The translations under genes and the position numbers were made by a program. Positions 7,182-26,835 of a stretch of DNA of 64,000 bases are shown here, piece by piece (position 1 is the stretch's first letter; every line of letters begins with the position of its first letter). The DNA is from Haloarcula laminariae. GTDB lineage: Archaea > Halobacteriota > Halobacteria > Halobacteriales > Haloarculaceae. The notes beneath the pieces were generated by a model. It searched no databases. It had not been told where the DNA came from and saw only the letters and a list, made by a program, of their open reading frames with translations. The stretch covers positions 496,001 to 560,000 of the forward strand of contig NZ_JAMZFY010000001.1 in assembly GCF_025457605.1 (NCBI RefSeq), in the 5' to 3' direction.

Positions 7182-8012
7182 ATGGGTGTCGTCGCCGTCT
7201 TCCTGGAGGTCGTCGCGGTTCTCTCGCTCATGCTCTCGGTCTCGCTGTCGGTCGTTGTCGGCCCGGACCGACTCCGGAGCGCCGCGGCCGATTTGCCCAC
7301 GCGCCTGCGGATGGCGCTGCAGCCGGTCGGCTTCCTCGTCTTCGTGTTGGTGATAAACAGCTTGGTCCGCAACATCGGCGTCGACATCTCCTGGATAATC
7401 GGGACCAACATCACCCGGTTCATCTACTCGCTCGAAGGGACCGTCGTCGCGACGATACAGTCGCTGGTGCCCGGCTGGCTGACGCTGTATTTCGGCTACG
7501 TCTACGTCTACGGCTACGCGTTCCTGCTGGTCTTCCCGCTGCTCGCGGCGATGCTCGCCGCCGAGCGGCGGTACCTCCGACACACCGCCTTCGCCTACGC
7601 CATCAACTACACCGCCGGGATGTGCTGTTACCTGCTCTTTATCGCCTACGGGCCGCGCAACTACATGCCGGCGCTGGTCGAGCCGCTGCTGTTCGATACC
7701 CTCCCGCGGTTCCAGTTGCTGACCAGCGAGGTCAACGCCAACACCAACGTCTTCCCGTCCCTGCACACCTCGCTGTCGGTGACCGTCGCCCTGCTCGCGA
7801 TACGGGACCACGAGACGTTCCCGAAGTGGACGCCCGTCGCCGTCTTCCTCGCGGTCAGCATCGTCCTCTCGACGATGATTCTGGGCATCCACTGGGCCAC
7901 CGACGTGGTCGCGGGGACCGTCCTCGCGACGTTCAGCGTCTGGGCGGTCTCCTCGGACCGCGTGGCGTCGCTGTACGGCCGCTGGCGGGCACTGTACGAC
8001 CGCTGGCGGTGA
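7182..8012 (+). CDS. PAP2-type membrane phosphatase / inositolphosphotransferase-like
   Basis: A 276-residue polytopic protein with about six to seven hydrophobic segments. PAP2 motifs are visible as YGPRNY, FPSLHTSLS (about 190-198) and GIHWATDVVAG (about 234-244), which supply the two catalytic histidines. The FPSLHTS version of motif 2 is typical of the PAP2_3/AUR1-like branch, which acts on phospholipid headgroups, rather than classical PSGH lipid phosphatases. It starts two bases after the solute-binding protein stop. The substrate cannot be assigned. Confidence 0.8.
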   Translation: MGVVAVFLEVVAVLSLMLSVSLSVVVGPDRLRSAAADLPTRLRMALQPVGFLVFVLVINSLVRNIGVDISWIIGTNITRFIYSLEGTVVATIQSLVPGWLTLYFGYVYVYGYAFLLVFPLLAAMLAAERRYLRHTAFAYAINYTAGMCCYLLFIAYGPRNYMPALVEPLLFDTLPRFQLLTSEVNANTNVFPSLHTSLSVTVALLAIRDHETFPKWTPVAVFLAVSIVLSTMILGIHWATDVVAGTVLATFSVWAVSSDRVASLYGRWRALYDRWR

Positions 8013-17679: not shown

Positions 17680-18352
17680 CGACAGTCACCGACAGTGTGG
17701 TCTTCGTCGTCCGCGGCGTCTCGTAGGCTATCTCGACTGCGCCGGACCTGAGTCGCCCCGGCGTCTGGAGCGCGATACGCGTCGTCCTGTACGGCGTCAA
17801 CCCTATCTCGAAGGTCCCCCGGAGGCCGCTGTCGTTGTGCAGGCGGACCTGCCCGTTGACCCGCATCGTCCGGACTGCAGTTCCGTTGCCAGGCGAGAAC
17901 GTGACGGTCGCACCCGTGGCCCGGCGCGGCAGCGTGACCCGCCTGCTTTCGGGCTCGACGGTCCGCGTCTCCGTCCGCGCGACGAGGACGAGCCGGTGAA
18001 TCGTCGTCCCACCCGCCGCTTCGCCGGTCGTCGCGACGCTGTCACCACCGAGTCGGACCGCGACGGCGTAGCTCTCGGTCGCTGGCGCCGCCTCGTGGAG
18101 CGCCGCCCCGTCGAACGCGTCGACCCGTGACCCGTTCAGGACGTTCGCCCGCTGGGCGACGGGGCCGTCAGCGGCGACGAGCCGGTCGGCCGTGGCTGTG
18201 GCCACCCGCCGCTCGTTGGGCGTTCGCTCGGCGCCCGCGATAGCCGAGTCGGCAAGCCCCAGTCCCAGTGCGGTCACCAGCGTCAGCAACACCAGCGCCA
18301 CGGCGACGGCGGGCAGGGTCGTCTGTGCCCGAACCGAAGTCGGCGGTCTCAT
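17672..18352 (-). CDS. Pilin-like protein of the type IV pilus operon (DUF7263-like)
   Basis: A 226-residue protein starting at the ATG at 18352, which overlaps the stop of the interrupted pilin gene (ATGA, 18349-18352). The leader SVRA/QTTLPAVAVAL fits a class III signal, followed by one membrane helix and a beta-rich extracellular domain. Expression is expected to suffer from the insertion 380 bases upstream unless a promoter within or at the edge of the element drives it. Confidence 0.75.
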   Translation of the reverse strand: MRPPTSVRAQTTLPAVAVALVLLTLVTALGLGLADSAIAGAERTPNERRVATATADRLVAADGPVAQRANVLNGSRVDAFDGAALHEAAPATESYAVAVRLGGDSVATTGEAAGGTTIHRLVLVARTETRTVEPESRRVTLPRRATGATVTFSPGNGTAVRTMRVNGQVRLHNDSGLRGTFEIGLTPYRTTRIALQTPGRLRSGAVEIAYETPRTTKTTLSVTVDA

Positions 18353-18737
18353 CCGCGTCCCTCCAGCCTGATAGTCACGTTTTCCCGCGACCCGCTGGCG
18401 GTGACAACTGTCTCGGCGCCGCTCTCCCACGTTCCCGTGACGTTGCTGACCCGGTCGGGGACCATCGGACGCGCCCGGCCGCCGACCGCCTCGTCAGGGT
18501 GCTCCAGTACCAGATGGGTCCCGTTGGCCCGGATGCGGTAGCCGGCCCCGTCGATGGTCGCCGGGATATCCACCCGGCGACTGGCTGCCACGTGTCGGCC
18601 CCGCGGTGGGACCGCCCGCTCGACCTCGGCGCTCGCCTCGGCCAGCACGCGTTCGCCCAGTTCCGCTCCCACCGCCCCCTGATAGGCCGGGACCGAACCA
18701 CCGTACAGCACCGTCGTCAGTAGCGTGATGTACAGCA
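18349..18737 (-). pseudogene. 3' part of interrupted pilin gene (DUF7266-like)
   Basis: This segment encodes residues from codon 20 or 21 to the end of a 148-residue pilin-like protein: the second half of its membrane helix (LYITLLTTVLYGG) and the whole extracellular domain. The 5' part is at 21885-22034, beyond an inserted element. Immediately before the junction the element contributes an in-frame TAG and then a TTG that could act as an alternative start codon. Any product made from it would lack the prepilin signal. If the element is excised through the 9 bp core, both parts join in frame. Confidence 0.88.
18729..18737. repeat. Left attachment core of the integrated element
   Basis: TGTACAGCA, identical to the copy at 21968-21976. 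Outside it, the host side reads GTGA and the element side reads ACTAAC. It marks the left recombination junction. Confidence 0.82.
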
Positions 18738-18799
18738 ACTAACTGATTCAGTATTAACAACGCAAACACTAAGGAGCCACCGTGAGACGTAACAGATAG

Positions 18800-19309
18800 A
18801 TGGCAGAGAAAACCACCGTCGCCTTTCGGATTGATGAGTCGGTCAAAGAGGAATGGGAAGACGCCGCCGAAGGTCCGGAGTATGACAGTCTAAGCCACTT
18901 GATACGGCTTTCTGTCCAACGGGAGATAACAGACACAGAGACGGCCCCACGCACCGAACAGGCCAACACAGGAACCGTCGAGAACAGCGAAATGTTACAG
19001 TCCCTCAATCGGCTTGAGAAGGTCACAGGAGAAATTCAGGAGGGAGTTGAAGCCTTTAGCCGAGAACGGAAGTCGGAAGAAATGTATGACCTAAAACAAG
19101 TCCTGCTTGAAGTGTTGCCCACCGCTCCCGGAACATATGCCCCCGGACCTAACGAACCCGAACCGGATAGTGTCGGTCAGAAGCCCCGCGAAGTTGCAGG
19201 CCGTATCGGAGCTGATACCAGCGACGTTTCCGACGCTCTCGAAGGCTTGGCTAACGGGGTTGGAATGGTTCGGTCGTCTAATGGCTACTACTGGAAGGCA
19301 GCGGAATGA
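18800..19309 (+). CDS. Ribbon-helix-helix DNA-binding protein coupled to the integrase
   Basis: A 169-residue protein. Residues 1-45 (TTVAFRIDESVKEEWEDAAEG, YDSLSHLIRLSVQREI) match a ribbon-helix-helix fold. A linker and a coiled-coil-like stretch (about 60-95) follow. The C-terminal region about 125-169 (REVAGRIGADTSDVSDALEGLANGVGMVRSSNGYYW) resembles a winged helix. Its stop overlaps the integrase ATG (19306-19309). By position it could act as recombination directionality factor or integrase repressor; this is inference. An AAGGAG sequence precedes the start by about 25 bases. Confidence 0.8.
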   Translation: MAEKTTVAFRIDESVKEEWEDAAEGPEYDSLSHLIRLSVQREITDTETAPRTEQANTGTVENSEMLQSLNRLEKVTGEIQEGVEAFSRERKSEEMYDLKQVLLEVLPTAPGTYAPGPNEPEPDSVGQKPREVAGRIGADTSDVSDALEGLANGVGMVRSSNGYYWKAAE

Positions 19310-20328
19310 ACACAGATACCCTACTCACCGAGTTTCGTAGCAGGCAGGAAACCAAGAAGGCAGACAGTTCCGCCCGTTCCTACACCCACACAGCAAAGGT
19401 ATGGGCTGATTGGTTGGCAGAACCCGGCGCAAAAGACTTCGACCACAACAGTCGAGAACGTCCCTCTAAGGAACTGTGGGAAGGTACAACCGGCGATTTA
19501 CAGGTATTCCTTCGGCAACAGTTACAGAGTGGTCTAACCGGCGGAACTGTCCAAAATCGGCGGTGGCATATCGCTATCCTGTATGACGAACTGGAAGAAA
19601 TGAAACGAGAGGGTGGTTACGGTATCCCCGACTTCGAGAATCCGGTAGAAGACCTTGATGTGTCTGATTGGCAGACATTGAAAGAAAAGCCGAGAAAAGT
19701 CCAAGAGAACAAAGGTCTAATCTACTTAGAGCCACAGAACGTTGAGAAATTATATGAGAATGCACCATCTCCGACGTTACGGAATGAGTTGATTATCCGT
19801 CTACTCTACCAGACCGGCCTTCGACGTGGAGAACTGTCAGAAACGCGCTTAGGAGACGTAAATACCGATGAGCGGGCAATCAAAGTTCACGCTGAAAAGA
19901 CCCACACAGACCGAACTGTATATTATCAACCGTCGCTGGATTCCCTCATAACGCGGTGGGTGAATGTCAAACGGAAATCACTCTCGACAGCAGGAAGCGA
20001 GTACCTGTTTCCGACGTACAAGACTGACCAAATCAAGCCAGCACAAATCGGGCTTATTGTCCGGAAAGCCGCCGAAGCCGCCGGGTTACAATCTGTCCTT
20101 TACACAGACTCATCGGGACAAAAGCAGATGAAGATAACCGCCCATATCCTTCGGCATAGTTTCGCAGTTCAATCCGTCAAAAATGGACTGGACACTCGGC
20201 GGTTACAAATGCTAATGGGTCACGCAAAAATCAGTACGACAGAAGACTACCTCCAATTTGCTAACGACGACCTCAAAGACGCAGTTCGGAAATCCGGGGC
20301 TGGTTCAGAGTCGATTCCTTCCTCCTAA
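19306..20328 (+). CDS. int: Tyrosine recombinase / site-specific integrase
   Basis: A 340-residue integrase. The N-terminal SAM-like core-binding domain (about 20-120) has the RSYTHTAKVWADWL pattern, and the C-terminal catalytic domain is complete: Arg173 (TGLRRGEL), Lys198 (HAEKTH), His280-x-x-Arg283 (HILRHSF), His306 (GHAKIS) and the nucleophile Tyr315 (TEDYLQF). With no residue missing it should be active. It lies inside the element that splits the pilin gene and is translationally coupled to the RHH protein. Codon use is AT-richer than in the host genes. Confidence 0.95.
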   Translation: MNTDTLLTEFRSRQETKKADSSARSYTHTAKVWADWLAEPGAKDFDHNSRERPSKELWEGTTGDLQVFLRQQLQSGLTGGTVQNRRWHIAILYDELEEMKREGGYGIPDFENPVEDLDVSDWQTLKEKPRKVQENKGLIYLEPQNVEKLYENAPSPTLRNELIIRLLYQTGLRRGELSETRLGDVNTDERAIKVHAEKTHTDRTVYYQPSLDSLITRWVNVKRKSLSTAGSEYLFPTYKTDQIKPAQIGLIVRKAAEAAGLQSVLYTDSSGQKQMKITAHILRHSFAVQSVKNGLDTRRLQMLMGHAKISTTEDYLQFANDDLKDAVRKSGAGSESIPSS

Positions 20329-20443
20329 TCAGGGGGTAAAGTCCGAGAAATGCCCTTCCACGTACTTCTGCAGGGGGCGGCACTACGCACCGGAAGCCGC
20401 CAAAGAGTTAATGTCGACACTTTAAGACCTTAGACGTAAGTAA

Positions 20444-20734
20444 ATGGCTTCTAAATGGCTTTGTGTGTCTGAAAGCACAATCGGAATACCCGACGCTGTC
20501 GCCACAGAATCACTCTCCTACGCAGAAACCGACATGACCCTTCGGGAGATAGCCACCGACCTACAGGAAGCGCACAGAGAACTTGACGAATACTACAGTG
20601 GCTCACTGGTGCTTGCTCAGAATCTCAAAGAGCTACGCCACTGTGCCGAAGCCGAAGGGAATACCGAACTTGTCGAGACTACCCGCAAGCTGGAACAGTC
20701 AGCTATGGCCGTGGTAGAACGTAGCAGAGAATAG
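20444..20734 (+). CDS. Unknown element-encoded 96-residue protein
   Basis: A small acidic helical protein (DMTLREIATDLQEAHRELDEYYSG, LVLAQNLKELRHCAEAEGNTELVETTRKLEQ), probably a helical hairpin or dimerising coiled coil. A CTTTAAG box about 23 nt before the ATG suggests its own leaderless transcript. A start further inside, at the ATG of DMTLRE, is possible. No family was recognised. Confidence 0.6.
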   Translation: MASKWLCVSESTIGIPDAVATESLSYAETDMTLREIATDLQEAHRELDEYYSGSLVLAQNLKELRHCAEAEGNTELVETTRKLEQSAMAVVERSRE

Positions 20735-20966
20735 CAACCGTCTCAGAATCGCCACAGTTGTCATAGCGTCGTATCTCACCAACTCGATTTTGAGAGGATG
20801 GCTGGGTCATGGACAGAGAAAGAGTTTCCACAGCCGCAAGCAGTCTGTCTCATACACCTCAGAAGCTATTACACATCGACCTTTCCCACCCACCTCCACG
20901 TTCCGGGACTCTACGCACCGCCCGTCCGGGCTTTCGCCACCACACAGCAACATATCGCCCACAAAA

Positions 20967-20974
20967 CTATTTAC
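20967..20974 (+). promoter_or_regulatory. TATA-like box for the last gene of the element
   Basis: CTATTTAC is centred 27 nt before the ATG at 20998. This is ideal leaderless spacing and the best support that the 106-residue frame is real. Confidence 0.6.
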
Positions 20975-20997
20975 ACCGTCTCTGAGTATGATGATTC

Positions 20998-21318
20998 ATG
21001 CCAGAGATGGGTAAACGGTATGAGGGTTCTGTTGATGATTTTAGCAACGCGGGGAATCCAATTATTGAACCGGGTATGGGTGCGAAAAGAACAGTCGTAG
21101 TGGACCGCGATAATCACGAGATTGAAATCGGAGATAGGATTTCGTTCACTATCGAAGAAGAAAATTATGACCACTACAAGGCGGAACTTCTCGGCCACCG
21201 TAGCGTTACGTCTGGCTATGATACTCCGCCAAACATACCGATTCACCATGATGGGAAGTCTGTAGGTTCAACCAGAAGTGAATCTGATGCCTCAAAACCA
21301 GTAGAAGACCGCAAATAG
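20998..21318 (+). CDS. Element-encoded 106-residue protein, possible TRAM/OB-like fold
   Basis: A small protein with the pattern GKRYEGSVDDFSNAGNPIIEPG ... IEIGDRISFTIEEE ... YKAELLG. The spacing of strands and glycines recalls the small haloarchaeal TRAM-domain proteins that bind RNA, but it is truncated or diverged and lacks the usual arginine-rich end. The last 30 residues are polar and probably disordered. The function in the element is unknown, and the TRAM resemblance is tentative. Confidence 0.6.
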   Translation: MPEMGKRYEGSVDDFSNAGNPIIEPGMGAKRTVVVDRDNHEIEIGDRISFTIEEENYDHYKAELLGHRSVTSGYDTPPNIPIHHDGKSVGSTRSESDASKPVEDRK

Positions 21319-21884
21319 GCGTCAATTCACAATCTGACTGTCAACCCTGTTTTCTCTCTCTCCTTTCCCTTCCCCCTGTAGTCCCCTTTCCTTTCCCTCT
21401 CAAAGAAAGACATTCAAACTCTCCCTATCCTATCCCCTGTAGTCCCCTTTCCTTTCCCTCTCTCTTTTCGAAGTTATCACGCCCTTCGGTTGTAATGATA
21501 ACACAGGATTAGAATTACAATCGGGTTCCGCGAGCTTTAGCGCATGGAGTGGCTGAATACGCTCCTCGCTTCGATGGATTAAAACGGCTTAGAGGCTCTT
21601 TAGATGGCTAATGTGGTGTCTCTCCATGCACTCTGGTACACTATTCCCCAACAACCTGAAAATCGGCGGCTTAGCTCACTTTCTCTGGAAGCTCTTAGAC
21701 AGCCGTGAGTGGGGTTAGAAACGATTTGAATTTTTGACGGCCCAGGGTACTTACAAACCAATCAAGCTAAGCACGGGCGAACTGAGGTGGCTTAAATCGC
21801 CTATTGTTTATATGGCGCTTCAATAACTGAGCATTTGGGAAAATTCTGGCTATATTTCGCCAATTTGTGAGAGAAAGTCACTTA
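21319..21884. other. Non-coding tail of the integrated element
   Basis: About 570 bases without a credible gene on either strand. It contains a pyrimidine-rich tract with two perfect 29 bp repeats (21373-21462) and an inverted repeat TTGTAAT ... ATTACAA (about 21489-21520). A distant GCATGGAG/CTCCATGC pair (about 21542 and 21623) and an AT-rich stretch near the right end are also present. It could hold an origin, integrase arm sites or a non-coding RNA. Confidence 0.5.
21373..21462. repeat. Two 29 bp perfect direct repeats
   Basis: Copies at 21373-21401 and 21434-21462, each beginning CCCCTGTAGTCCCC and ending TTTCCCTCTC, are 61 bases apart start to start. The strand is almost entirely pyrimidine apart from GTAG. 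Two copies only and a 32-base spacer do not make a CRISPR. They resemble iterons or recombinase/accessory protein arm sites. Confidence 0.8.
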
Positions 21885-22034
21885 CTATGTGCGTATGTGG
21901 GGGTGTACCAATGTTTTAACCCCCTCCACAGGCTTGTGTTTGCGCTGTACATACTCAAAAGCTGTGTTGTACAGCATCACGACGGAGAGCGAAAGCAGCT
22001 TCTCGACGACCGTGCTGAGCCCGCGGTTATCCAC
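21885..22034 (-). pseudogene. 5' part of interrupted pilin gene (DUF7266-like)
   Basis: The frame starts at GTG 22034, overlapping the TAA of the preceding gene. It encodes codons 1-22 of the pilin-like protein (MDNRG/LSTVVEKLLSLSVVMLY), including its class III signal and half the membrane helix. It then reads through the core into 27 element-encoded residues before a TAG at 21885. The chimeric 49-residue product would be a signal-bearing stub. Joining codon 22 to the ATC codon at 18729-18727 restores a continuous 148-codon gene. Confidence 0.85.
21968..21976. repeat. Right attachment core of the integrated element
   Basis: TGTACAGCA, identical to the left core. The host side continues TCACGACG. 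On the element side an inverted copy GCTGTACA lies at 21944-21951, 16 bases away, which may be an additional integrase binding arm. Confidence 0.82.
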
Positions 22035-24626: not shown

Positions 24627-26835
24627 CGGTCTCTACCTCCAGATGAACGGGCTCCCGGTCGCCGGCCCGCCGGCGGAGCCGCTCGACCGTCGCGGCCTCG
24701 TTGGTCTCCAGGTCGGCCAGGACGCCGAACAGCTCCCGGAAGTCCGTAAGCCCCTCCCTGACGAGATACTGCACGTACCTGTGGCGTCGGTGGAAGGTCT
24801 CCTCGACGGTCTCGGCCGGTTCGTCCCGCAGCGTCGCCAGGCGGTCGAACATGCCCGTCTCGACGCGGCGACGGTCGTCGCCCAGCTGCGGATGGTCGTA
24901 CCCGAGGTCGAACGACCCGTCGGGGCGGCGCCGACAGAGCGTGTTGTAGTGAATCGTCTCCCCGTCTTTCTCGATGGTTCCGCTCCGGTCTCCCTCGCGT
25001 GGCTCGTCCAGGAACTCGACGACCTCGCCGACGTAGCGCTCGCCGCCAACGTGGCGCGGGAAGACGACGACGTCGATTTCGGTCAACAGGTAGGTCGGCA
25101 CGCCCTTCTCGATGATGCGGTTGACGAGCGTCTCGATGTCCGCAGCGTGGGTCGTTCCCAACACGCCGTGGCCGGTGTTCAGCGTCTCGGCGAAGGTCTC
25201 GAAGGAGGCCCGCGTGTTTATCTCGGCGATGACCTCGACGTCGGGGTTTAGATAGTTGCACTGCGTCATGAGGTCGGCCATCGTCACCCGGCGGTGGTCG
25301 CGCTCGTGGTCCCGGGTGGTCAGCGAGACGCCCGTCTCGTGGGGAATCTGCACCTCTCGGGACCCCTCGTCGATACTGATTGGGCGGTCCCGATACGGGA
25401 TGAACGGCATGTGGGCGTTCATCAGCGTCGTCTTGCCGGCGCCGGTCGGCCCCGAGAAGAGGACGACGCCGTGGGACTCGTACAGCAGCCACAGCAGCGC
25501 GACCAGCTCCGTCGGTATCGACTCCCGTTGGACGAGGTCGACGGGCGTCATGGCGTCGGCCGACTGCTTGCGGATGGAGATGTGCGGGCCGTCCTCGCTG
25601 ATGGTGGGCAGGGCGACCGCACAGCGGATGGTCTCCTCGGCGTCGTGGACGCCCTCGCCCTCGGGGTCGATGTTGACCTTCGCGCTCGGGTTCGAGGCGT
25701 TGAGTTCGGTGCCGTCGTCGGCCGCCAGTTGGGTGACGACGTTGACGAAGGCAGATTCGTCCTCGAAGGAGAGGTTCGTCGGGACGCGCCCGTCGTGGCC
25801 CAGGTCCGCCCTCGGCAACACCTTCACGCGCTCGCCGACGCGGTTCGCCTCGATGTCCTCCAGCGTGGGGTCGCGGATGGGGATGGTGAGCTTGCCGTAT
25901 CCGACGAGGTCCCGGAGCACGTAGTACAGCAGGTCGTCGAGGCGGTCGTCGGCGAAGCGCTGGTCCAGGGGCGGCACCGCTAAATCCAGCTCCGCGAGCG
26001 CGGACCGCAGCCGGTAGGCAACCGCATCGACCCACTCGGTGGTGTTGCGGACAGTCAACTGGCGGGCGAGCAGCGACGCGGCCCGGTCCCGGACGAAGGC
26101 CACGCGGTCCTCGACGACCCCCTCGACGCTGGTCTCCCACACTCGCTCCTTGCAGGCCCTGATGAGCTCCTCGTCGCCGGGCAGCCGGTCCGGTTCGCGG
26201 ACGGCGTACTTCGTGGTGAAGGGGTCGCTGCCAAGCAGGTGTTCCCGGTAGACGATGACCGGTATCTCGAACCCCTGGAAAGCGACGGTGTGGCGCTCGA
26301 CGCGCTCGCTGGCGAAGCGCTCGATGTAGTCGGGGCTCTCCAGGCTCGTGGCGGCCGGCGCGTAGTCCTCGGTGTGGACGACGACGCTGTCTTCGGTCAC
26401 GTCGGCGACGTCGATGCGGTCGTCAAGCGCGTAGGGAGTCAACTCGCCCAGACAGGCCAGCGAGCACAGCGCGTGATAGGCGACGCGCCGGCGCCCCGCC
26501 GGCGAGCAGTCGATCAGCCGGTCGATGACCCGGCGGTGTTTCGGGTCGAAGCCGCCGGCCATCCGCTCGACGGCCCCCTCCCTGGTGCGTGGCCGCTCGA
26601 TGTTCGCGCCGTCGAAGTGTGACCTGACGGTCGCGAGCGCCTCTCGGTCGCTCGGCGAGAGCACCGGCTCGCGGACCTCGTACCGGAAGCCGTCGGCCTG
26701 GCGCACTGTCACGACGACGCCCGGGTACACCTCGTCCTGTTCGCGCACGTCGGGCGCGTACCACGCGTCGGGGTCGTCCGGCGGGACCGGGGCGGGAACG
26801 GTCGGCCGCCGGTTCTCAGTCGCTTGCCCACTCAT
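24616..26835 (-). CDS. Type II/IV secretion system ATPase (pilus assembly)
   Basis: A 739-residue assembly ATPase of the archaeal PilB/VirB11 group with a long N-terminal domain. Visible motifs are Walker A FSGPTGAGKTT, the Asp-box region ISIDEGSREVQIPHE, Walker B-like DVEVIAEINTRASFETFAETLNTGHGVLGTTHA, and a C-terminal helical region. I start at ATG 26835 (MSGQATENRR) because a TTTAAG box lies 27-30 nt upstream. It leads the seven-gene minus-strand operon. No prepilin peptidase is encoded in this window. Confidence 0.93.
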   Translation of the reverse strand: MSGQATENRRPTVPAPVPPDDPDAWYAPDVREQDEVYPGVVVTVRQADGFRYEVREPVLSPSDREALATVRSHFDGANIERPRTREGAVERMAGGFDPKHRRVIDRLIDCSPAGRRRVAYHALCSLACLGELTPYALDDRIDVADVTEDSVVVHTEDYAPAATSLESPDYIERFASERVERHTVAFQGFEIPVIVYREHLLGSDPFTTKYAVREPDRLPGDEELIRACKERVWETSVEGVVEDRVAFVRDRAASLLARQLTVRNTTEWVDAVAYRLRSALAELDLAVPPLDQRFADDRLDDLLYYVLRDLVGYGKLTIPIRDPTLEDIEANRVGERVKVLPRADLGHDGRVPTNLSFEDESAFVNVVTQLAADDGTELNASNPSAKVNIDPEGEGVHDAEETIRCAVALPTISEDGPHISIRKQSADAMTPVDLVQRESIPTELVALLWLLYESHGVVLFSGPTGAGKTTLMNAHMPFIPYRDRPISIDEGSREVQIPHETGVSLTTRDHERDHRRVTMADLMTQCNYLNPDVEVIAEINTRASFETFAETLNTGHGVLGTTHAADIETLVNRIIEKGVPTYLLTEIDVVVFPRHVGGERYVGEVVEFLDEPREGDRSGTIEKDGETIHYNTLCRRRPDGSFDLGYDHPQLGDDRRRVETGMFDRLATLRDEPAETVEETFHRRHRYVQYLVREGLTDFRELFGVLADLETNEAATVERLRRRAGDREPVHLEVETDDD

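Follow-up and report, generated by a model that had tools for sequence, protein, structure and literature searches.

Tyrosine recombinases of archaea were surveyed in a 2021 review, in which att sites inside protein genes are treated as untested and the question is raised whether such sites are dyad-symmetric (PMC8371274, section 19). The small partners encoded with the SNJ2-type integrases are Orf2, a coiled coil, and Orf3, a MarR-like winged helix, and similarity to this type is judged by 30% identity over 60% of the length (PMC8371274). The nine related sites in six genes that we describe here answer the question of the review at the sequence level, since they consist of loose inverted half-sites around a 7-bp overlap and, except in the window, lack full symmetry.

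The window (the whole 64,000-nucleotide stretch of DNA analysed) holds a genuine insertion in a pilin-like gene. The 9-bp direct repeats TGTACAGCA, located at 18729-18737 and 21968-21976, enclose DNA with a G+C content of 45-55% versus about 70% in the surrounding DNA, and the rejoined flanks encode a DUF7266 type IV pilin-like protein starting with MDNRGLSTVVEKLLSLSVVMLYITLL. The insertion is real because 28 homologues of this gene in the genus are unbroken at the insertion point, and direct repeats together with a restored, unbroken target mark a site-specific integrative element. Rejoining the flanks gives the attB site CGTGATGTACAGCATCACG (CGTGATGCTGTACATCACG on the pilin strand), which is a perfect palindrome of 7 + 5 + 7 nucleotides, and rejoining the element ends gives the predicted circular junction GTTGTACAGCAAC with a 4 + 5 + 4 dyad about the same centre. 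The perfect 7-bp inverted repeat with its 5-nt centre and the 4-bp inverted repeat of the junction had both been claimed in a preliminary description of this DNA, and both were seen again here. We consider it very probable that the insertion represents a 3.2-kb integrative element from a small haloarchaeal family, which has a symmetric 69-bp attP and whose target would be set by a 7-bp overlap and degenerate half-sites.

The organisation of the element is given in Table 1. Its integrase matches PF00589 over residues 141-317 with 109.6 bits (cut-off 27.1), and the active-site series R...K...HxxR...H...Y is recognisable in the motifs TGLRRGE, AEKTH, HILRH, MGHA, and the Y in TTExYL, which are invariant in the close alignment. 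Judged by these motifs, the catalytic domain is intact, and the enzyme may be active at present; its AlphaFold model is of low confidence (pLDDT 36). The ORF1 product combines an N-terminus with an RHH-like pattern (a pattern only), a coiled coil, and a C-terminal winged helix; the C-terminal part was modelled at a pLDDT of about 70-80 (best winged-helix Z 9.3), and a PDB sequence search with the ORF1 profile returned two weak matches only. Its sequence and model make ORF1 the obvious candidate partner of the integrase.

Table 1. Features of the integrative element and its flanks (window positions)
Feature	Position	Strand	Remark
DUF7266 pilin-like gene, C-terminal part	18349..18738	-	PF23928, 4e-44
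Host left half of attB, CGTGAT on + (ATCACG outward from overlap)	18724..18729		
Left copy of 7-bp overlap, GTACAGC (pilin strand GCTGTAC, conserved Leu-Tyr codons)	18730..18736		
attP right half, AACTAACTGATTC, 13 nt from overlap to arm	18737..18749		same length in 9/9 elements
Left inverted arm, AGTATTAACAACGCAAAC	18750..18767		also possible TATA region of the ORF1-int operon
ORF1, 169 aa	18800..19309	+	directly before int in 9/9 elements
int, tyrosine recombinase (PF00589), 340 aa, predicted intact	19306..20328	+	
Small cargo ORF, 96 aa	20444..20734	+	in four elements; weak ArnB_C match below cut-off
Small cargo ORF, 106 aa	20998..21318	+	also in L035
Right inverted arm, GTTTGCGCTGTACATACT	21938..21955		15/18 versus left arm
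attP left half, CAAAAGCTGTGTT, 13 nt from arm to overlap	21956..21968		end TGTGTT in 6/9 elements
Right copy of 7-bp overlap, GTACAGC	21969..21975		
DUF7266 pilin-like gene, N-terminal part (MDNRGLSTVVEKLLSLSVVM..)	21976..22034	-	reads into the element, then stop
Host right half of attB, ATCACG	21976..21981		

Two further details of the element can be mentioned. A non-coding 44-nt direct repeat (21358-21401 and 21419-21462, core CCCTGTAGTCCCCTTTCCTTTCCCTCTC, spacing 61) is accompanied by similar stretches near the right end of the L010 element and apparently also in L034. At 18736-18738 on the minus strand, the GTT of the attP half and the G of the overlap form an in-frame TTG before the downstream gene fragment, as also happens in L034, L035, and L101; this might permit translation of the C-terminal part or might be a coincidence.

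A search for relatives in several hundred genomes of the class and in a named genome collection yielded eight related elements with integrases 54-89% identical to that of the window: L010 (Halovenus salina), L011 (Haloarcula argentinensis), and L033, L095, L034, L035, L036, and L101, which come from haloarchaeal genomes of the same order. The elements are 2.7-4.8 kb long, and all nine share the arrangement of ORF1, int directly after it, and then variable cargo. The cargo of L033, L095, and L101 includes in each case a gene whose product combines a helix-turn-helix with a region like that of HNH endonucleases (weak PF13392 match); L033 also carries an M48-peptidase-like membrane protein, and another membrane protein is common to L010 and L036.

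The right end of each of the nine elements carries an 18-bp sequence near GTTTGCGTTGTTAATACT, which recurs in inverted orientation at the left end. These inverted arms, invariant at 10 of the 18 positions across the 18 copies, are the most conserved part of attP, and neither they nor the ORF1 partner appear in the preliminary description. They occur only at the element ends and are absent from attB, as expected of the arm-type sites that we predict them to be. The geometry of attP is alike in 9/9 elements, comprising an 18-bp arm, 13 nt, a 7-bp overlap, 13 nt, and the inverted 18-bp arm; as exactly 13 nt separate the 7-mer from either arm when the arms are taken as fixed, the circular attP is a 69-bp imperfect palindrome.

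A different function of the arms has to be considered, namely that ORF1 or basal transcription factors bind them as operators or promoters, in which case their symmetric placement around the crossover would be secondary. The left arm contains TATTAA/TATAAA about 32 nt upstream of the ORF1 start, and ORF1 with its RHH-like and winged-helix parts resembles a DNA-binding protein. However, the inverted copy at the far end has no conserved gene to drive, and its distance to the overlap is exactly equal in all nine elements, so that we hold this explanation to be rather unlikely. Because attB lacks the arms, and because in attP they mirror each other across the crossover, we favour a role in recombination for them: they would probably recruit the N-terminal domain of the integrase, or ORF1, and set the direction of the reaction.

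No relatives were found in viral contigs by integrase, and since the 27 matches to the arm pattern in these contigs lie without a related integrase, they are probably due to chance. In plasmids there was no DNA match to the element, and only distant integrases were present. Distant integrases (about 38-43% identity; L037, L102-L105) were left out because they lack the arms.

Symmetry alone would be a weak argument. In the window host DNA, seven pairs at a fixed 5-nt centre have a chance of 2.7e-4, whereas a perfect 7-bp repeat of any spacer length from 3 to 9 nt that starts at most 4 nt from a given site has a chance of 1.3%, and the 4-pair symmetry of attP one of 0.9%. Moreover, attB and attP are not independent at the inner TG..CA pairs, because these sit in the shared 9 bp. 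An alternative is that the attB palindrome is a chance product of conserved codons (V-V/M-L-Y-I-T) that says nothing about the integrase. The value of 1.3% speaks for it, and so does the fact that the symmetry follows from codons conserved before the insertion: the flanks match at 5/6 pairs in the four nearest relatives and at 1-4/6 elsewhere in the genus. This explanation is unlikely, however, since no more than 0.02% of random host sites fit the half-sites as well as the window attB does when the consensus is taken from other targets only.

The half-site fit was scored with a position weight matrix (PWM) built from attP half-sites, leaving out all elements of the scored attB's target. The six independent attBs reach 26.2, the null being -56 (sd 12); none of 20,000 random sets attained this score, and still none did when the window element was dropped. 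The score peaks at the true centre, where the best other shift within 25 nt gives -4.6, and at a gap of 7 nt, where the best of the other gaps among 4-11 gives 7.1 and gap 6 is poor. Read outward, the half-site is approximately (A/T)AC(N)C (WACNC), mostly AACAC or AACTC in attP, and the window attB looks palindromic because ATCAC, present on both sides, makes a good half-site pair. The consensus is loose, since some half-sites are poor (the left half at the ATPase site; L011).

These data allow the proposals of the preliminary description to be re-evaluated. The centre it gave is that of the 7-bp overlap and proves correct, the half-site score peaking there. Paired core binding, which it derived from symmetry, is supported in the form of two inverted half-sites (by the PWM, the centre, and the gap), while perfect symmetry is not needed; the crossover, placed by it inside the 9-bp TGCTGTACA, is predicted from sequence to fall in GCTGTAC within these 9 bp, with an overlap of 7 bp and not 5 or 9. 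The further claim that the integrase needs perfect dyad symmetry in attB, and that this explains the choice of the codon stretch, could not be sustained. It agrees with the window attB, symmetric at 6/6 flank pairs, and with the six independent attBs, which show 20/36 dyad matches versus 10.1 for random sites (p ~0.001), or 14/30 versus 8.4 with the window excluded (p ~0.02); but two loose half-sites would give such a group excess anyway, and the half-site score separates the true sites far better. Outside the window, the flank dyad amounts to four of the six pairs in L010 and L036, two in L011, L033, L095, L035, and L101, and none in L034, and to 1-3/6 in the 30 unbroken ATPase genes from the genus of L033 and L095. 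Related integrases with the same attP geometry thus use asymmetric sites (0-4/6), an outcome that the preliminary description itself had named as speaking against it. As a strict rule, the need for a perfect dyad is already contradicted, and we regard it as very unlikely. In addition, a pattern search showed the exact GTACAGC at no fewer than four further places on the chromosome with flanks that equal or surpass those of attB (by a simple mismatch count), so that the half-site rule names no unique target. The symmetry of attB supports paired core half-sites, of which it may be taken as a sign, perfect symmetry being a bonus and not a rule.

The 7-bp overlap is identical at attL and attR in 9/9 elements (63/63 positions), and identity of this kind, combined with unlike flanks of attB and attP, is the hallmark of exchange by a tyrosine recombinase. 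The overlaps are GTACAGC (window), TCTCGAA (L010), CAACAAC (L011), TTACCTC (L033), CTACCTC (L095), CTGACAC (L034), CTGGCAC (L035 and L101), and TCCCTGG (L036); these eight sequences represent six independent sites because two sites occur in two synonymous variants each. Integration of the Tn916 kind, which needs little homology and would make the overlaps coupling sequences taken from the targets, fits the eight different overlaps among nine related elements and their tracking of host synonymous variants (TTACCTC/CTACCTC; CTGACAC/CTGGCAC), but is most improbable, since heterologous coupling would leave unlike overlaps at attL and attR after replication.

At each of the six independent targets, all of them protein genes, a long reading frame reappears when the flanks are rejoined. 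Besides the pilin-like gene, these encode a membrane protein with a zinc ribbon (L010), a secreted protein that is beta-propeller-like by eye (L011), a pilus ATPase, hit at NYLNPD (L033 and L095), and a flavin oxidoreductase resembling old yellow enzyme, hit at PMCQYS (L034, L035, and L101); in L036 the site lies in the final codons of a gene read as menB. The last two identities were judged from sequence. Only L036 restores its target: the element end supplies CACTATTAA (left end, reverse-complement orientation, ~7390-7422), by which the menB-like C-terminus EYPWHY is kept, and in all other cases the gene is cut. A stop codon supplied by the overlap of L034 was considered and rejected, because the triplet, read on the coding strand, is a synonymous Cys codon. 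Conservation was examined for two of the genes, and in both the overlap lies on strongly conserved codons, Leu-Tyr in the pilin family and Tyr-Leu in the ATPase, and the 30 pilus ATPase genes in the genus of L033 and L095 are unbroken at the site. Since the pilus ATPase gene of the window itself has an intact NYLNPD site (25238-25257, minus strand), the targets of the relatives include two genes of one pilus-type locus. In the pilus ATPase genes of G153 and G356, the match ends at query residue 76-79, which perhaps reflects another insertion or a diverged end.

Integration probably follows the course known from other tyrosine recombinases. We suggest that two integrase subunits would bind the attP half-sites and two others the loosely similar half-sites of attB; strand exchange would occur at either edge of the 7-bp overlap, whose sequence has to be the same in attP and attB. 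The target would then be defined by overlap identity and two degenerate half-sites, here at the conserved Leu-Tyr codons of the pilin-like gene. One possible way to change the overlap between targets is integration at a near-match followed by excision. We incline, by a modest measure, to the view that these elements form a family of minimal haloarchaeal integrative elements not described before, whose arm-core-arm attP is fully symmetric. New targets would be reached by an exchange of the 7-bp overlap alone, with half-sites and arms kept almost constant, and in this way the elements would colonise conserved codons of unrelated protein genes. No earlier description of the family was found in the literature searched, the coverage of which was incomplete (few subscription papers). 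With its compact 69-bp attP and short attB, this is an integration system for haloarchaea that can be tested and might be re-targeted.

The suicidal integrases of the SSV type are likewise archaeal tyrosine recombinases with inverted repeats around the overlap in their sites, but here the integrase gene is not split by integration; int is intact inside the element in 9/9 cases, and this identity was rejected. The SNJ2-type integrases (pleolipovirus SNJ2, HHPV4) are also haloarchaeal and encoded in an operon with a small partner. However, they target the 3' end of tRNA genes, while the elements described here target protein genes, and no recognisable virus structural genes were found in the window element. 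Alignment of the window integrase with that of HHPV4, which is about 71% identical to the SNJ2 enzyme, gave nothing significant (best E 0.089 over 26 residues), and the SNJ2-type identity was rejected by this comparison.

The archaeal XerA/dif system shows some likeness: the closest solved catalytic domains (4a8e, 5hxy) are those of XerA/XerD, and XerA is the closest NCBIfam model. However, the window integrase scores 138 bits against the XerA equivalog cut-off of 220, and dif has an 11-6-11 structure without arms, in contrast to the 7-bp overlap, the arms, and the mobile-element context observed here. The identity with XerA was rejected because of the score below the NCBIfam cut-off and the gap preference (7 best, 6 poor).

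With the lambda-type integrases the system shares an overlap of 7 bp, core sites that are inverted and loose in both attB and attP, and further conserved sequences, the putative arm sites, confined to attP. It differs in that attP is 69 bp long with one inverted arm per side at equal distance, as opposed to the asymmetric array of about 240 bp in lambda, and in that the putative partner is ORF1 instead of Xis/IHF/Fis. We propose, on these likenesses of the sites, that the window integrase works like the lambda-type enzymes with a compact symmetric attP.
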